This document shows, piece by piece, positions 5,385-16,886 of a stretch of DNA of 64,000 bases. This stretch comes from Gluconobacter thailandicus F149-1 = NBRC 100600 (lineage in GTDB: Bacteria > Pseudomonadota > Alphaproteobacteria > Acetobacterales > Acetobacteraceae). Positions within the stretch are counted from its first letter, which is position 1; each line of letters starts with the position of its first letter. The DNA lies in assembly GCF_000964465.1 (NCBI RefSeq), contig NZ_BANH01000024.1, forward strand, positions 124,001 to 188,000. Direction: 5' to 3'. The notes below the pieces were generated by a model. It ran no database searches. It was not told where the DNA came from and worked only from the letters and a program-made list of their open reading frames with translations. Made by a program: the position numbers and the translations under genes.

Positions 5385-7442
5385 TCACTTGCTACGGGCA
5401 GCCTGACGCTTTGCGGCGTCAAAGACTGCTTCCGGCGTAAACCCGAACTTGGTCAGAAGTGCAGAAGCCGGAGCCGATGCACCAAATGTATTCATGGCGA
5501 TGATCGCGCCGCCGAGACCAACATAACGATCCCAGCCAAAGGCTGCTGCCTGCTCAACGGCCACACGGCCGATCACGTCAGGCGGCAGGACAGAGTCGCG
5601 GTAGTCCTGAGGCTGCTCTTCGAAAAGATCGAAACTTGGGAACGATACCACGCGAGCCTTCACACCTTCTGCCGTCAGCTTTTCGTAAGCCGCGACAACC
5701 AGCGATACTTCAGAACCCGACGCCATCAGAATCACATCCGGCTTACCTTCACAGGAGGCCAGAACGTATGCGCCCTTTGCCAGACCAGACGCCGCGGCAT
5801 ACTTGCTGCGGTCGATCGTCGGCAGATTCTGGCGGCTCAGGGCCAGAACGGCAGGCTTGTGCGTCATAGGGATCAGGGTGCGCCATGCCTCTGCCACTTC
5901 GTTGGCGTCGGACGGACGGATCGTCATGATGCCCGGGGTCGCGCGAAGTTGAGCAAGCTGCTCGATCGGCTGATGGGTCGGGCCGTCTTCACCGACGCCA
6001 ATGGAGTCATGCGTGAAGATATACGTGACCGGCAGTTCCATAATGGCCGACAGACGGACCGGGGCCTTCATGTAATCCGAGAAGATCAGGAAGCCGGAGC
6101 CATATGCACGGATACCGGACAGCGCGATGCCGTTACAGATCGAGCCCATGGCATGTTCGCGCACACCGAAATGCAGGTTGCGGCCCCCATACGTGCCCCC
6201 CCACTGCGGCGGCTGGAACGATCCGCCACCCTTGATGTCCGTCTTTGTAGATGGCGTCAGATCAGCAGAACCACCGATCATCCAGGGCAGGTTCTTGGCA
6301 ACGGCATTCAGCACCTGGCCAGAGCTGGCACGGGATGCCACGCCCTTGGCGTCGGCTTCGAAAACCGGAATGTCCTTGTCCCAGCCTTCTGGCAGACGGT
6401 GCTCGAAGATGGCTTCAAGCTCGGCAGCTTCCTTGGGATAGGCTTCCTTGTAAGCCGAAAACAGCTCGCTCCACTCAGCGTTGGCAGCTGCACCGCGCTT
6501 CCCAAGACCTTCTGCGAAGTGTTCCTTCACACCATCCGGCACATAGAAGTCCCCAGCGCCGTCCGGCCAGCCATAAGAGGCCTTCGCGCCCTTGATTTCG
6601 TCTGCGCCAAGCGGCTCGCCATGAGCGGACGCCGTGCCAGCCTTCTTGGGAGCGCCATAACCGATGACCGTCTTCAGAACGATCATGCTTGGACGGTCCG
6701 TGACCTTCTTGGCTTCCTGAAGGGCCTTCAGGATCGCTTCCACGTCATTGCCGTCTGTCAGCGTCTGGACATGCCATTTGTAGGCCTCGAAACGCTTGCC
6801 GACGTCTTCCGTCAGGGCAAGGTCCGTCGACCCTTCAATGGAGATCTGATTGGAATCGTAAACCCAGGTCAGGTTCCCGAGACCAAGATGTCCAGCCGTG
6901 GACGCGGCTTCGGACGCCACACCTTCCATCATGTCACCATCGCCACAGAAGACCGTGACGTGATAGTCGAACAGCTTGAAACCGGGACGGTTATACGTCT
7001 CAGCCAGCCACTTCTCGGCAATCGCCATACCAACGGAATTGCCACAGCCCTGACCCAGCGGACCAGTCGTCGTTTCGACACCAGCCGTGAACCGGTATTC
7101 CGGATGGCCCGGCGTGCGGGAATTCAGCTGACGGAACTGCTTCAGATCCTCGATCGTCAGAGCCGGGCTCTCGACAACTTTGCCATCCTGAATGTCCCGG
7201 ACGCCTGCCAGGAAGAGCGTCGAGTACAGCAGCATGGACGCATGCCCGACGGACAGGACAAAACGGTCTCGGGCCGGCCATAGCGGATCGGCCGGATCGT
7301 AGTTCAGATCATGCTGCCACAGCGCATACATGGCCGGAGCCAGAGCCATCGCCGTTCCGGGATGACCGGAATTCGCGCGCTCGACAGCGTCCATGGAAAG
7401 TGTGCGGATGGTATTGATACCGAGTTCAGGAAGGGTACTCAT
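5385..7442 (-). CDS. tkt: Transketolase
   Basis: Thiamine-diphosphate enzyme that moves two-carbon units between pentose, tetrose and hexose phosphates. Its 685 residues match the usual 660-700. The ThDP/Mg motif starts at GDGDMMEG and runs to the NQI about 30 residues later. The pyrimidine-domain motif GVGEDGPTHQP and the transketolase signature near the N-terminus (RANSGHPG) are present. It is the first gene of the minus-strand operon tkt, tal-pgi, gnd, HAD, pgl. The stop lies just before the tal-pgi ribosome-binding site. The 122 bases upstream are shared with a divergent metallo-hydrolase gene and presumably hold both promoters. Confidence 0.96.
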   Translation of the reverse strand: MSTLPELGINTIRTLSMDAVERANSGHPGTAMALAPAMYALWQHDLNYDPADPLWPARDRFVLSVGHASMLLYSTLFLAGVRDIQDGKVVESPALTIEDLKQFRQLNSRTPGHPEYRFTAGVETTTGPLGQGCGNSVGMAIAEKWLAETYNRPGFKLFDYHVTVFCGDGDMMEGVASEAASTAGHLGLGNLTWVYDSNQISIEGSTDLALTEDVGKRFEAYKWHVQTLTDGNDVEAILKALQEAKKVTDRPSMIVLKTVIGYGAPKKAGTASAHGEPLGADEIKGAKASYGWPDGAGDFYVPDGVKEHFAEGLGKRGAAANAEWSELFSAYKEAYPKEAAELEAIFEHRLPEGWDKDIPVFEADAKGVASRASSGQVLNAVAKNLPWMIGGSADLTPSTKTDIKGGGSFQPPQWGGTYGGRNLHFGVREHAMGSICNGIALSGIRAYGSGFLIFSDYMKAPVRLSAIMELPVTYIFTHDSIGVGEDGPTHQPIEQLAQLRATPGIMTIRPSDANEVAEAWRTLIPMTHKPAVLALSRQNLPTIDRSKYAAASGLAKGAYVLASCEGKPDVILMASGSEVSLVVAAYEKLTAEGVKARVVSFPSFDLFEEQPQDYRDSVLPPDVIGRVAVEQAAAFGWDRYVGLGGAIIAMNTFGASAPASALLTKFGFTPEAVFDAAKRQAARSK

Positions 7443-13758: not shown

Positions 13759-14175
13759 ATGTCCGTAATGCTCGATCCCTCTACACTTCCATCCGTCAAT
13801 ATTCTTGGCCTGGCTCAGGGCGGCGCCATTCTTCGTGCCGAACGCGAAACACCGCCTGACGGGATTCCGGCATTCATAACGAAAGAAGGCTGGGACGAAC
13901 TCATTGCAGCACATGCTGACAACCATGCCGCCCCTCATATCATCGTGCTTCCCGCTCTTGAAAAAGCCGTTACCCGCATTTTGGCTCATGCAGCTGAAGC
14001 GGCTCAGAGCGAAGGCAAGACCGCACCCGTTATCAGTCTCGAAAGCGATCTTTTCCCCAGCGATCCCACCTTAATTCTGGCGTTCGTGAGAGATGAGACA
14101 CACCCAGTCGCCTGCGCTTTGATAGGAACCGCAGCCCATCTGGTAGATATGCTTCGGGGCGACGGATCAATGTAG
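13759..14175 (+). CDS. Hypothetical protein
   Basis: 138 residues, Ala-rich and soluble, without signal peptide or membrane segment. It has alternating hydrophobic strands and helices (HIIVLPALEKAVTRILAHA, then LILAFVRD and CALIGTAAHLVDML). I do not recognise the family. The last nine bases overlap the convergent fliJ gene. It follows a strong terminator and so must have its own promoter in the short gap before 13759. Codon use matches its neighbours, which supports a real gene. Confidence 0.6.
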   Translation: MSVMLDPSTLPSVNILGLAQGGAILRAERETPPDGIPAFITKEGWDELIAAHADNHAAPHIIVLPALEKAVTRILAHAAEAAQSEGKTAPVISLESDLFPSDPTLILAFVRDETHPVACALIGTAAHLVDMLRGDGSM

Positions 14176-14592
14176 GTTTCGTTGCCTCAGAGCCAGCTCA
14201 TCCAGCACAGCCTGCTCCTTGCGAAGACGATGCTGCTGTATTTCCCCCTGCTGCTTTTCTTCCAGCTTTTCTACGGCTTTCAGGGCGGCCTGCGCCATCA
14301 GAAGGGCTGAGCGGATGCAGTCCCTGTCTATTGCCGCCTGCCGGCATCGTTCCTGAGCCTCAGAGATTGCGCGCTGGCCAACAGGCAGCCAACGACTGAA
14401 AGCCTCAACGGCCCGATCATCGGCCAGCGGATCAGAAGCCAGCTTCTGTTCCATCAGCAAGTCTTGATGCCTTTGGCCAAGTGCCGTTTCCGCAGCCGCT
14501 TCCCGCGCCACAGCTTCGCCAAAAGCCTTCTCCACATCTGCAAGTTCATGACGTCTCAGACGACGAAGAACTTCAAGTGGCATCTGCCTCAT
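14167..14592 (-). CDS. fliJ: FliJ-like flagellar export chaperone
   Basis: 141 residues, almost wholly predicted long helices rich in Ala, Glu, Gln and Arg, in keeping with the antiparallel coiled coil of FliJ. It begins MRQMPLEVLRRLRRHELADV. Sequence alone is weak in this family. The call rests on length, coiled-coil character and position 20 bases downstream of fliI. FliJ forms the central stalk of the FliI hexamer and escorts chaperone-substrate complexes to the export gate. Confidence 0.75.
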   Translation of the reverse strand: MRQMPLEVLRRLRRHELADVEKAFGEAVAREAAAETALGQRHQDLLMEQKLASDPLADDRAVEAFSRWLPVGQRAISEAQERCRQAAIDRDCIRSALLMAQAALKAVEKLEEKQQGEIQQHRLRKEQAVLDELALRQRNLH

Positions 14593-14612: not shown

Positions 14613-15989
14613 TCAGGCTGCGGTGCCCATGATGGTTGCAAGCTGCTCAAAGGCGTCCAGACACCCTGAACGTTCGTTCTTTCCCTGAGACAGAAACGTG
14701 TCGAGCTGAGGCATAAGACGAATAGCTTCATCCACGTCTTTCTCCGTTCCAGATTTGTAGGCACCCAGCCGGATCATGTCGGCCATGCGCTCATATGTTG
14801 CCATGGTTGCACGGGCCTGGCGGGTTAACCTGTTTTCTTCTGCCGAATTGCACCCCGGCACGGCACGAGACAGGGAACGCAGTACGTCAATAGCCGGATA
14901 CCGGCCCTGCTCCCCGATCTTCCGGTCCAGCACGATGTGCCCATCCAGAATGCCACGCACCGCATCTGCGACAGGTTCGTTGTGGTCGTCACCTTCCACC
15001 AGAACCGTGAACAGTGCCGTAATCATTCCTTTCCCCGGATACCCCGGTCCCGCACGTTCCAGAAGTTTTGGCAGATCGGCAAAAACCGAAGGTGGATAAC
15101 CCCGCGTTGCCGGCGGCTCCCCTGCCGACAGACCAATTTCGCGCAAGGCCATGCAGTAGCGCGTTACGCTGTCCATCAGGAGTAGGACCGATTTGCCCTG
15201 ATCCCGGAAATGCTCAGCGATCGCCATGGCGGAAACAGCAGCGTCCCGCCGCATCAACGGCGGAGTATCAGATGTCGCGATCACAACAACGCTTCGCGCA
15301 AGACCTTCCGGGCCAAGATCATCTTCGATGAATTCCCGAACCTCACGGCCTCGCTCACCAACCAGCGCAATCACCGCAACGTCACAGTCAGCCCCCCGGG
15401 CCAGCATGGATAACAGCGTTGACTTACCGACGCCGGAGCCCGCGAATAGACCCAGCCTTTGCCCGCGCCGACAGGTTGTAAACGCATCCAGCGCCCTGAC
15501 CCCCAGATCAATCCTGTCTCCGAGCCTGGCCCGCGTTGCAGCATTGGGAGGGGAATTGAGAACAGGTTGCTGGTCCAGTGCGGGGATCAATGCGCCTTTC
15601 CCATCCATTGGCTCTCCAAGCGGATCAACGACACGCCCTAACCAGCTTTCATTGACACCAAGAGACGCCGAAGACTGGCGACTCAGGGGAATACGCGCCT
15701 CACAACCAGGTCCAATCCCTTCAAGACTGCCAAAAGCCATGACCCGAGCATGTGCTTCATGAAATCCTACAACCTCTGACTGTATAAGACTCCCCGATCG
15801 AGAACGAATTGCGATTCGATCGCCAATTGAAACGAGTCCTTCCAGGCCGTGAATCGTCACACACAGTCCCGTCACATCCTGAACCGTTCCCAATGCACCG
15901 TCAGGTTGCAGACGTACCGCTTGATCCAGCAGCCCCTTAAGACAGCCGGAAATCGCCATTTTTTTCTGGTTTTGGGCGGTTTCCATCAT
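14613..15989 (-). CDS. fliI: Flagellum-specific export ATPase FliI
   Basis: 458 residues, usual length for the family. The Walker A motif is GLFAGSGVGKSTLLSM (about 170-185), Walker B lies in SVLLLMDSVTRYCMAL, and the F1-beta-like ATPase signature region around PPATRGYPPSVFADLPKLLERAG is clear. It hydrolyses ATP at the cytoplasmic base of the flagellar type III export apparatus. The start could be ATG 15989 or the adjacent ATG 15986. The gene is divergent from a CtrA-family regulator with a 153-base gap that holds CtrA-like half sites. The cell is therefore expected to be flagellated. Confidence 0.95.
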   Translation of the reverse strand: MMETAQNQKKMAISGCLKGLLDQAVRLQPDGALGTVQDVTGLCVTIHGLEGLVSIGDRIAIRSRSGSLIQSEVVGFHEAHARVMAFGSLEGIGPGCEARIPLSRQSSASLGVNESWLGRVVDPLGEPMDGKGALIPALDQQPVLNSPPNAATRARLGDRIDLGVRALDAFTTCRRGQRLGLFAGSGVGKSTLLSMLARGADCDVAVIALVGERGREVREFIEDDLGPEGLARSVVVIATSDTPPLMRRDAAVSAMAIAEHFRDQGKSVLLLMDSVTRYCMALREIGLSAGEPPATRGYPPSVFADLPKLLERAGPGYPGKGMITALFTVLVEGDDHNEPVADAVRGILDGHIVLDRKIGEQGRYPAIDVLRSLSRAVPGCNSAEENRLTRQARATMATYERMADMIRLGAYKSGTEKDVDEAIRLMPQLDTFLSQGKNERSGCLDAFEQLATIMGTAA

Positions 15990-16013
15990 TTCTCGAACGT
16001 TAAACCCAGAGAG

Positions 16014-16028
16014 TTAACAAAACCTGAA
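16014..16028. promoter_or_regulatory. Candidate CtrA-type binding site in fliI/ctrA spacer
   Basis: TTAAC followed by a second half so that the pattern is TTAA-N7-TGAA, one mismatch from the known TTAA-N7-TTAA CtrA box. Another GTTAAA half lies at 15999-16004. The site is 25 bases upstream of the fliI start and 115 before the regulator gene, so it could control either. Confidence 0.35.
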
Positions 16029-16142
16029 GCCAACTCACTTCGGGAAGAAATAATGAAAAATTTACGCTTTTTCATTTGTGTCTATCGACATACACAACTC
16101 CAGGTAGTAACCACTGCTTCACCAATCCGGGAGTTGAAAAAC

Positions 16143-16886
16143 ATGCGTATCCTTCTTGTCGATAGCGATCTTCAGGCCGCAGCCACTCTGTCCCAGATCC
16201 TGCGGACAGCAGCTTTCACCGTGGATCACACAGCGTCAGGTGAAGAAGCCATCGAGATGCTCCGTCATTACGATTATGATGTGATGGTTCTCGAACTGAT
16301 GCTGAACGACATTGAGGGATATGACGTCATTCGTCGGGTCCGCTCTTCCCGGATCACAACGCCTATCCTGGTTCTGTCCGCCCTGCTCCGTCCACAAGCC
16401 AAGATCCGCGCATTCTCGATGGGGGCGGACGATTACATGACGAAGCCCTACGATCCCGGCGAACTGATCGCCCGTCTCCAGGCTGTCATGCGCCGCTCCC
16501 GCGGTTTTGCTGAGCCATGCCTGCGGGTTGGGAACCTGGAACTCGATCTGAATGGCAAGAATGTCACGATTGATGGATCAGCTCTGCACCTGACAGGCAA
16601 GGAATATGCCATCCTGGAGTTGCTGGTCATCCGCAAGGGTTCAGTGCTGACAAAAGATGCTTTTCTGAACCATCTTTATGGCGGTATTGATGAACCGGAA
16701 ATGAAGATCATTGATGTCTTCATCTGCAAGCTGCGCCGCAAGCTCCAGAAAGCCGGAGCAGAAAATCTGATCGCAACCGTCTGGGGACGGGGCTACATCC
16801 TGCGCGACGAGCCAACCACCGAAACCGGTTCCACACTACAGGGCGAGCGCCCTCGTGCGGTTCAGCCCGTTACAACATTCGCCTGA
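16143..16886 (+). CDS. ctrA: CtrA-family response regulator with Glu at the phospho-acceptor position
   Basis: 247 residues from the ATG at 16143 (GGGAG nine bases before). The receiver domain is residues 1-116 and the OmpR/PhoB-type winged-helix domain about 125-230. The C-terminal domain carries the very conserved CtrA stretches LTGKEYAILELL, FLNHLYGGIDEPE and KIIDVFICKLRRKL, so the family is firm. The receiver aligns to Caulobacter CtrA without gaps (from memory): Asp9, Ser79 and Lys101 are kept, but position 51 is Glu (GAA, 16293-16295) and position 8 is Ser. Phosphotransfer is therefore unlikely and the protein may be constitutively active. A C-terminal tail of about 25 residues ends TTFA. 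A standard CtrA might exist elsewhere in the genome. Confidence 0.9.
   Translation: MRILLVDSDLQAAATLSQILRTAAFTVDHTASGEEAIEMLRHYDYDVMVLELMLNDIEGYDVIRRVRSSRITTPILVLSALLRPQAKIRAFSMGADDYMTKPYDPGELIARLQAVMRRSRGFAEPCLRVGNLELDLNGKNVTIDGSALHLTGKEYAILELLVIRKGSVLTKDAFLNHLYGGIDEPEMKIIDVFICKLRRKLQKAGAENLIATVWGRGYILRDEPTTETGSTLQGERPRAVQPVTTFA

Follow-up and report, generated by a model that had tools for sequence, protein, structure and literature searches.

The CtrA response regulator of Gluconobacter carries naturally a substitution well known from the laboratory: glutamate stands at residue 51 in place of the phosphate-accepting aspartate, the change is common to many relatives, and the phosphate donor ChpT was not found. 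CtrA serves as the textbook case of a regulator with a phosphorelay-controlled output, and older work in Caulobacter found that the D51E substitution makes CtrA activity independent of phosphorylation. As judged from sequence data, CtrA in Gluconobacter and in many related vinegar bacteria probably works without a phosphorylation switch. Aspartate-less regulators as such are already known; the case described here is a CtrA protein converted into a pseudo-receiver regulator. For the missing relay genes of acetic acid bacteria this offers a simpler answer, namely a CtrA without the phosphate-accepting residue, and it makes a natural series of residue-51 variants available in industrial bacteria that are safe to work with.

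D51E and D51A are in use as phosphomimetic and non-phosphorylatable ctrA alleles, respectively (PMC12186491, PMC6363796). According to the accessible part of one of these studies, overexpressed CtrA-D51A causes twofold more gene transfer in Rhodobacter capsulatus, and gafA is modeled as being activated by unphosphorylated CtrA (PMC6363796). The same changes are present in nature, Glu in the strain studied here and Ala in some Bombella; unlike the laboratory alleles, they are natural, held over many genera, and accompanied by changes in the acidic pocket and by the absence of ChpT. Among the aspartate-less or pseudo-receiver response regulators are ChxR and HP1043. Proteins of this kind resemble the Gluconobacter protein in that the receiver fold is kept while the Asp is missing, with Glu as the commonest residue at its position, and in being products of orphan genes; the rhizobial flagellar regulator Rem is named as an atypical case (PMC12632262, accessible part). 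The protein described here differs from them in having been derived within the CtrA family. The term 'CtrA' is absent from the main texts of PMC12632262 and PMC4395418. In Rhodospirillales, parts of the relay are missing to varying degrees, cckA is present where chpT was not found, and other phosphotransferases may replace ChpT (Brilli et al., 2010; PMC2877005), a paper whose main text contains neither 'D51' nor 'aspartate'. A survey from 2021 reports, in its accessible part, chpT, cckA, and divL in 27-36% of Rhodospirillales genomes vs. 72-82% for ctrA, gcrA, and ccrM, and offers lower selection or hard detection as possible causes of the low rates (PMC8116508). Among the matches listed for the open-access literature, as far as these texts were accessible and with subscription papers mostly outside this scope, there was no prior report of a natural CtrA lacking Asp51.

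A CtrA protein with a pseudo-receiver domain

The window, by which we mean the entire analyzed stretch of 64,000 nucleotides from G. thailandicus F149-1 = NBRC 100600, contains at 16143..16886 (+ strand) a gene for a ctrA-derived response regulator of 247 amino acids, as established by translation, Pfam, NCBIfam, and alignment. Its OmpR-type receiver and its winged helix with the CtrA recognition region assign the protein to the CtrA family. CtrA was the best of 91 NCBIfam families (next family, 161 bits), although the score of 327.5 bits against model NF045991 (RespRegCtrARhodob) lies under the curated cut-off of 350; the protein is 93% identical to the CtrA of G. japonicus. The receiver domain (residues 1-118; 16143..16496, + strand; Pfam PF00072 and superposition on 4qpj_C) has both its phospho-acceptor and one acidic-pocket residue replaced. 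Translation verified the two substitutions on which the original prediction was built: codon 51 (16293..16295, + strand), at the position of the phospho-acceptor Asp, is GAA and encodes Glu, while codon 8 (16164..16166, + strand), at what we take to be the Mg2+-binding acidic-pocket Asp of receivers, is AGC and encodes Ser, with Asp7 and Asp9 remaining. Translation and the family survey show that Ser79 (16377..16379, + strand), presumably the conserved Thr/Ser of the receiver switch, and Lys101 (16443..16445, + strand), presumably the conserved receiver Lys, are kept. The winged-helix DNA-binding region (residues 127-220; 16521..16802, + strand; Pfam PF00486 and alignment) has an intact CtrA signature, and LTGKEY, FLNHLYGGIDEPE, and KIIDVFICKL are all retained, as had been stated.

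In an alignment with 26 relatives, columns 1-200 are gap-free and E51 stands opposite Asp51 of the Asp51-bearing members, in agreement with the ungapped comparison in the original prediction. D46 and D56 are invariant in this alignment; since they are invariant in ordinary CtrA proteins as well, neither is a displaced or new acceptor. An AlphaFold2 model of the protein (mean pLDDT 82.7, pTM 0.54; pLDDT < 50 in the tail from residue 225 on) has a receiver that superimposes on the CtrA receiver 4qpj_C, which we take to be that of Brucella, with 1.1 A over 118 columns at 45% identity, a fit that does not distinguish the active from the inactive form. The protein is hence a pseudo-receiver regulator, with a receiver fold but without the phospho-acceptor Asp. 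It shares orthologous domains, the recognition-region signature, and the 4qpj_C fold with the CtrA proteins of the CckA-ChpT-CtrA relays of Caulobacter, Brucella, and other Alphaproteobacteria; it differs from them in the lack of Asp51, the changed residue 8, the failure to find ChpT, and the lack of a clear CckA.

Glu51 was read in 10 of 10 Gluconobacter loci, encoded by GAG in G. japonicus and by GAA in the other nine, and the use of two different codons excludes a sequencing error at this position. The assembly containing the window (3.43 Mb in 191 contigs) is 100% complete; its genus-level group includes genomes with the CtrA of Neokomagataea. A search for a second CtrA, which the original prediction had called for, found none in the genome, the next best protein match having only 36% identity, so that a hidden paralogue can be dismissed, as can, from the gap-free columns, a misalignment at residue 51. 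A sequencing error, a paralogue, or a misalignment, with a normal CtrA elsewhere, is therefore so improbable an account that we do not consider it further. At the equivalent position, 10 of 10 other OmpR-type regulators of this genome (read by eye) have kept the Asp.

Residue 51, the acidic pocket, and relay proteins in the Acetobacteraceae

Of 200 family genomes drawn for the survey, 176 had a CtrA match at 1e-50. Ten of these remained unread (G072, G084, G109, G125, G141, G148, G153, G168, G176, and G196); G122, whose match did not reach this limit, was added and G086, with a truncated CtrA, was excluded, so that the counts for residue 51 cover 166 genomes. The residue is Asp in 124 (including the low-identity or partial rows of G004, G045, G062, G093, and G193, possibly not all of them true CtrA), Glu in 33, Arg in four, Ala in three, His in one, and Ser in one; Glu occupies the position in 33 of the 42 non-Asp51 genomes. 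The same picture emerges from named loci, a sample selected by likeness to the window CtrA and therefore biased to close relatives: Glu51 is present in 22 loci of acetic acid bacteria (10 from Gluconobacter, three from Asaia, two from Bombella, two from unclassified Acetobacteraceae, and others from Neokomagataea, Tanticharoenia, Brytella, Acidomonas, and Acetobacter musti), Ala51 in four Bombella-type loci, and Asp51 in deeper members. The alignment of family members proposed as a check thus finds Glu51 to be common to Gluconobacter and many relatives. A very divergent clade of CtrA-like proteins (L285-L289, from G140, G068, G187, G096, and G023) has Arg or Ser at residue 51 and possesses neither K101 nor S79; the motif KIIDVFICK is present, and FlhA occurs in these genomes. 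In Bombella dulcis (L057), the ctrA gene with Ala51 (6001-6668) consists of two frames overlapping near residue 94, and the same two-frame overlap is present in G032; both genes are frameshifted or misassembled.

The acidic pocket is changed in nearly all Glu51 genomes, with Asp8 kept in only two of the 33 (G009 and G133). Glu51 is combined with an intact pocket in Acetobacter musti and G009, and with both an intact pocket and ChpT in G133. Three genomes of one genus-level group have the pocket sequence EPN, one with Glu51 (G135, locus L180) and two with Asp51 (G184, locus L183, and G060, locus L185), which suggests that residue 51 may switch back and forth once the pocket has been lost.

The search for chpT prompted by the original prediction did not find the gene in the G. 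thailandicus genome, either with Pfam PF10090 or with an alignment of five family ChpT proteins that detected six of six positive controls. Strong matches to this alignment (106-250 bits, in frames of 206-389 amino acids) were obtained in 12 genomes, including the six controls; the weak matches scored at most 40 bits and lay nearly all within larger frames. With both searches combined, 102 of 124 Asp51 genomes have ChpT vs. one of 42 non-Asp51 genomes; 97 of the Asp51 assignments rest on PF10090 at 1e-5, six of them re-tested with the alignment, as were all genomes scored as ChpT-negative. The sole non-Asp51 genome with ChpT is G133, which has Glu51 and an intact pocket, is 88% complete, and is placed among Asp51 relatives. 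Asp8 together with Asp or Glu at position 9 is found in 100 of the 103 ChpT-bearing genomes. Among the 22 Asp51 genomes without detected ChpT, 13 have a changed pocket (12 without Asp8, one without Asp/Glu9); two of the others have Gln7, and seven have the pocket EDD. Few clades underlie the association between residue 51 and ChpT, many non-Asp51 genomes falling into few related groups: in independent-pairs comparisons on the CtrA tree, a mean of 1.1 of six pairs spoke for it and none against, the rest being undecided, and for pocket residue 8 and ChpT a mean of 2.5 of seven pairs spoke for and 1.2 against an association; neither result is significant. Separate changes are nonetheless visible in the same tree: G146/G081 and G133 branch away from the main Glu51 groups, and an Asaia-type Glu51 group contains G046/G126, which have Asp51 and an altered pocket; as the backbone of the tree is unresolved, its count of 10 changes between Asp and non-Asp is a soft number.

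CckA is likely to have been lost from the G. thailandicus genome, as far as such matches can tell. The CckA test is weak. There was no match to the CckA model NF046020 at 1e-90, but 10 of 33 Glu51 genomes do match (vs. 106 of 124 Asp51 genomes). The best match to an alignment of four family CckA proteins, at 253 bits, lies within a 1223-amino-acid frame, in its kinase and receiver portion. Clean full-length matches to this alignment (389-609 bits) occur in only five of 12 genomes with ChpT (G083, G038, G058, G016, and G028), besides G177, which has no detected ChpT, and are missing from ChpT-bearing controls such as G003 and G044. The postulated uncoupling from the CckA-ChpT phosphorelay hence gains from the genus-wide Glu51, the single CtrA, and the failure to find ChpT, while its CckA part depends on a missing 1e-90 match. 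In two deeper members of the family (L153 and L155), a CckA-like gene encoding PAS, kinase, and receiver domains lies a few kb from an flhB-like frame (flhB named by eye).

There are 26 receiver-domain matches in the genome, all of whose open reading frames were read by eye and nine of which were scanned against NCBIfam. Outside the chemotaxis cluster there are three stand-alone receivers, with scores of 60.9, 35, and 42.1 bits vs. a CpdR cut-off of 180, and none of the three could be named DivK or PleD on the basis of NCBIfam scores and inspection by eye. GcrA is present in the genome and was matched in 50 of 50 family genomes searched, 49 of them over the cut-off. SciP is a known antagonist of CtrA. 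It was over the cut-off in none of the 50 genomes, Asp51 ones included (G083 and G037 were just below), and was dropped as a candidate for a substitute control.

Constraint on the protein and explanations of the Glu51 state

Receiver sequences have a mean pairwise identity of 0.70 among the 97 Asp51 genomes with ChpT vs. 0.55 among 30 of the 33 Glu51 genomes (G040, G122, and G133 left out), while the corresponding values for the DNA-binding region are 0.77 and 0.74. Among 11 Gluconobacter sequences, dN/dS has a median of 0.031 in the receiver (54 of 55 pairs usable) and of 0.017 in the DNA-binding region (all 55 pairs), at a median dS of about 1, which is near saturation. These ratios indicate that purifying selection maintains the Gluconobacter receiver, which is not decaying, and that the DNA-binding part is almost frozen; the low value for the receiver implies that this domain still has some role. 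The receiver residues that accompany the acceptor site have been retained together with Glu51: 31 of 33 Glu51 genomes have K/R101 vs. one of the nine whose residue 51 is non-acidic, and for S/T79 the counts are 33 of 33 vs. three of nine, five of these nine genomes being one clade. This pattern fits a Glu51 that would act as a phosphomimic alongside Lys101 and Ser79. Such a residue might make CtrA constitutively active in the manner of the Caulobacter D51E protein.

We consider it quite likely that the window CtrA is an orphan pseudo-receiver transcription factor that would be active as made and controlled through its amount. Leading to this reading are Glu51, Ser8, the failure to find ChpT, the constraint on the DNA-binding domain, and the sharing of this state by related genera. 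The CckA-ChpT route should then be unable to charge the protein, which would fold in or near the active state, with Lys101 and Ser79 likely to assist Glu51 in the Glu51 lineages. It would bind sites of the TTAA-N7-TTAA type, for example the one between fliI and ctrA (intergenic region 15990-16142), and protein synthesis and degradation would set its output, together with autoregulation.

Residue 51 might instead be free to drift, the receiver having become a passive fold and dimer platform after the loss of ChpT, with Glu51 contributing nothing by itself. Such drift is suggested by relatives that have Ala, His, Arg, or Ser at this position, and Glu appears dispensable in view of the Ala51 proteins of flhA-bearing Bombella (two genomes combine Ala51 with an intact flhA) and of the EPN-pocket group, in which the Asp51 of G060 and G184 stands beside the Glu51 of G135. 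Nevertheless, we regard drift as rather unlikely: Glu greatly outnumbers the other replacements and has been retained throughout Gluconobacter with both of its codons, K/R101 stays with Glu51 and is lost in eight of the nine non-acidic genomes (five of them one clade), and the dN/dS of the receiver is low.

Slightly less likely still is a new input to the pseudo-receiver, for instance from a partner protein or a small molecule or through some other modification, by which CtrA would still be switched on and off. The strong purifying selection on the receiver despite the missing ChpT could be read in this way, and pseudo-receivers under the control of partners are discussed in the accessible part of PMC12632262. 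Against it, no kinase or partner gene adjoins ctrA in the window (inspected by eye), no candidate partner was found, and SciP failed to reach its cut-off in any genome searched. That another phosphotransferase has taken the place of ChpT and phosphorylates a different CtrA residue is highly improbable: such replacements have been proposed for organisms with CtrA and CckA (PMC2877005, accessible part), and hybrid kinases with receivers are encoded in the G. thailandicus genome, but Asp51 is missing, D46 and D56 are those of ordinary CtrA proteins, and pocket residue 8 has been lost.

Returning to a CtrA that is active as made, we tentatively propose, at somewhat less than even odds, that in acetic acid bacteria a phosphomimetic change of Asp51 freed CtrA, that ChpT and the pocket decayed thereafter, and that the level-controlled regulator outlives the flagellum. 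If this is true, Acetobacter musti, G009, and G133 would be snapshots of intermediate steps in the dismantling of the relay. The natural series from Asp through Glu with an intact pocket and Glu with a changed pocket to Ala lends itself to testing how the dismantling of a relay can leave its transcription factor in place.

Flagellar genes and the ctrA upstream region

Divergent from ctrA lies a gene at 14613..15989 (- strand) that we take to be fliI from its sequence, followed downstream by a fliJ-like gene (14167..14592, - strand) named from its position and size. The divergent fliI-ctrA arrangement is common to the window locus and many Asp51 and Glu51 relatives; all 15 of the loci L019-L033 have it, as do seven Asp51 loci of the family (L034, L036, L038, and L040-L043). 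Among Glu51 loci, fliI does not adjoin ctrA in Asaia, in Bombella, or in several others. In Asaia krungthepensis, ESL0709, and Bombella mellum, fliI is missing from the locus and ctrA is still beside glmM, ftsH, and tilS; flhA is present elsewhere in the genomes of ESL0709 and B. mellum, and none was found in that of A. krungthepensis.

FlhA was not found in 12 of the 42 non-Asp51 genomes, each of them at least 99% complete and each with CtrA kept (the FlhA-negative state of G122, G135, G142, G169, and G189 was derived by subtraction), which indicates that CtrA outlives the flagellum. Among the four Ala51 Bombella-type genomes, flhA is intact in L047 and L059 and split in L060, and it was not found in L057. 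A rule by which Ala51 accompanies the loss of the flagellum in Bombella fails on the two genomes with an intact flhA, which also imply that an acid at residue 51 is not required everywhere. In Parasaccharibacter apium AS1 (G207, locus L060), the FlhA match is split over two overlapping frames (C3:245726-247746), as if the export gene were breaking down.

The best match to a CtrA box in front of the gene is a TTAA-N7-TTAA-like site with one mismatch at 16014..16028 (+ strand). All 11 Gluconobacter sequences have a site with at most one mismatch at -127 to -129 relative to ctrA, with much of the flanking DNA diverged, although it reaches p < 0.05 against shuffles in only two of the 11. The other genera checked do not have it at this position, and five of five Asp51 loci did no better than chance. 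The pattern shows no excess in the window (two matches vs. 2.56 expected) and a weak one in the flhA region (five vs. 3.13 expected). The suggestion that this CtrA drives flagellar genes is thus plausible in view of the divergent fliI and the candidate CtrA box, but it cannot describe the whole function of a protein kept in 12 of 42 genomes in which FlhA was not found. No GANTC motif is present within 250 bases upstream of ctrA in 10 of 11 Gluconobacter sequences. Closer to the gene, at about 16090-16140, the blocks GACA, ACAAC, GTAGTAA, and GGAGTTGA are conserved in 12 of 12 aligned Gluconobacter and Neokomagataea sequences and are perhaps the promoter and leader.
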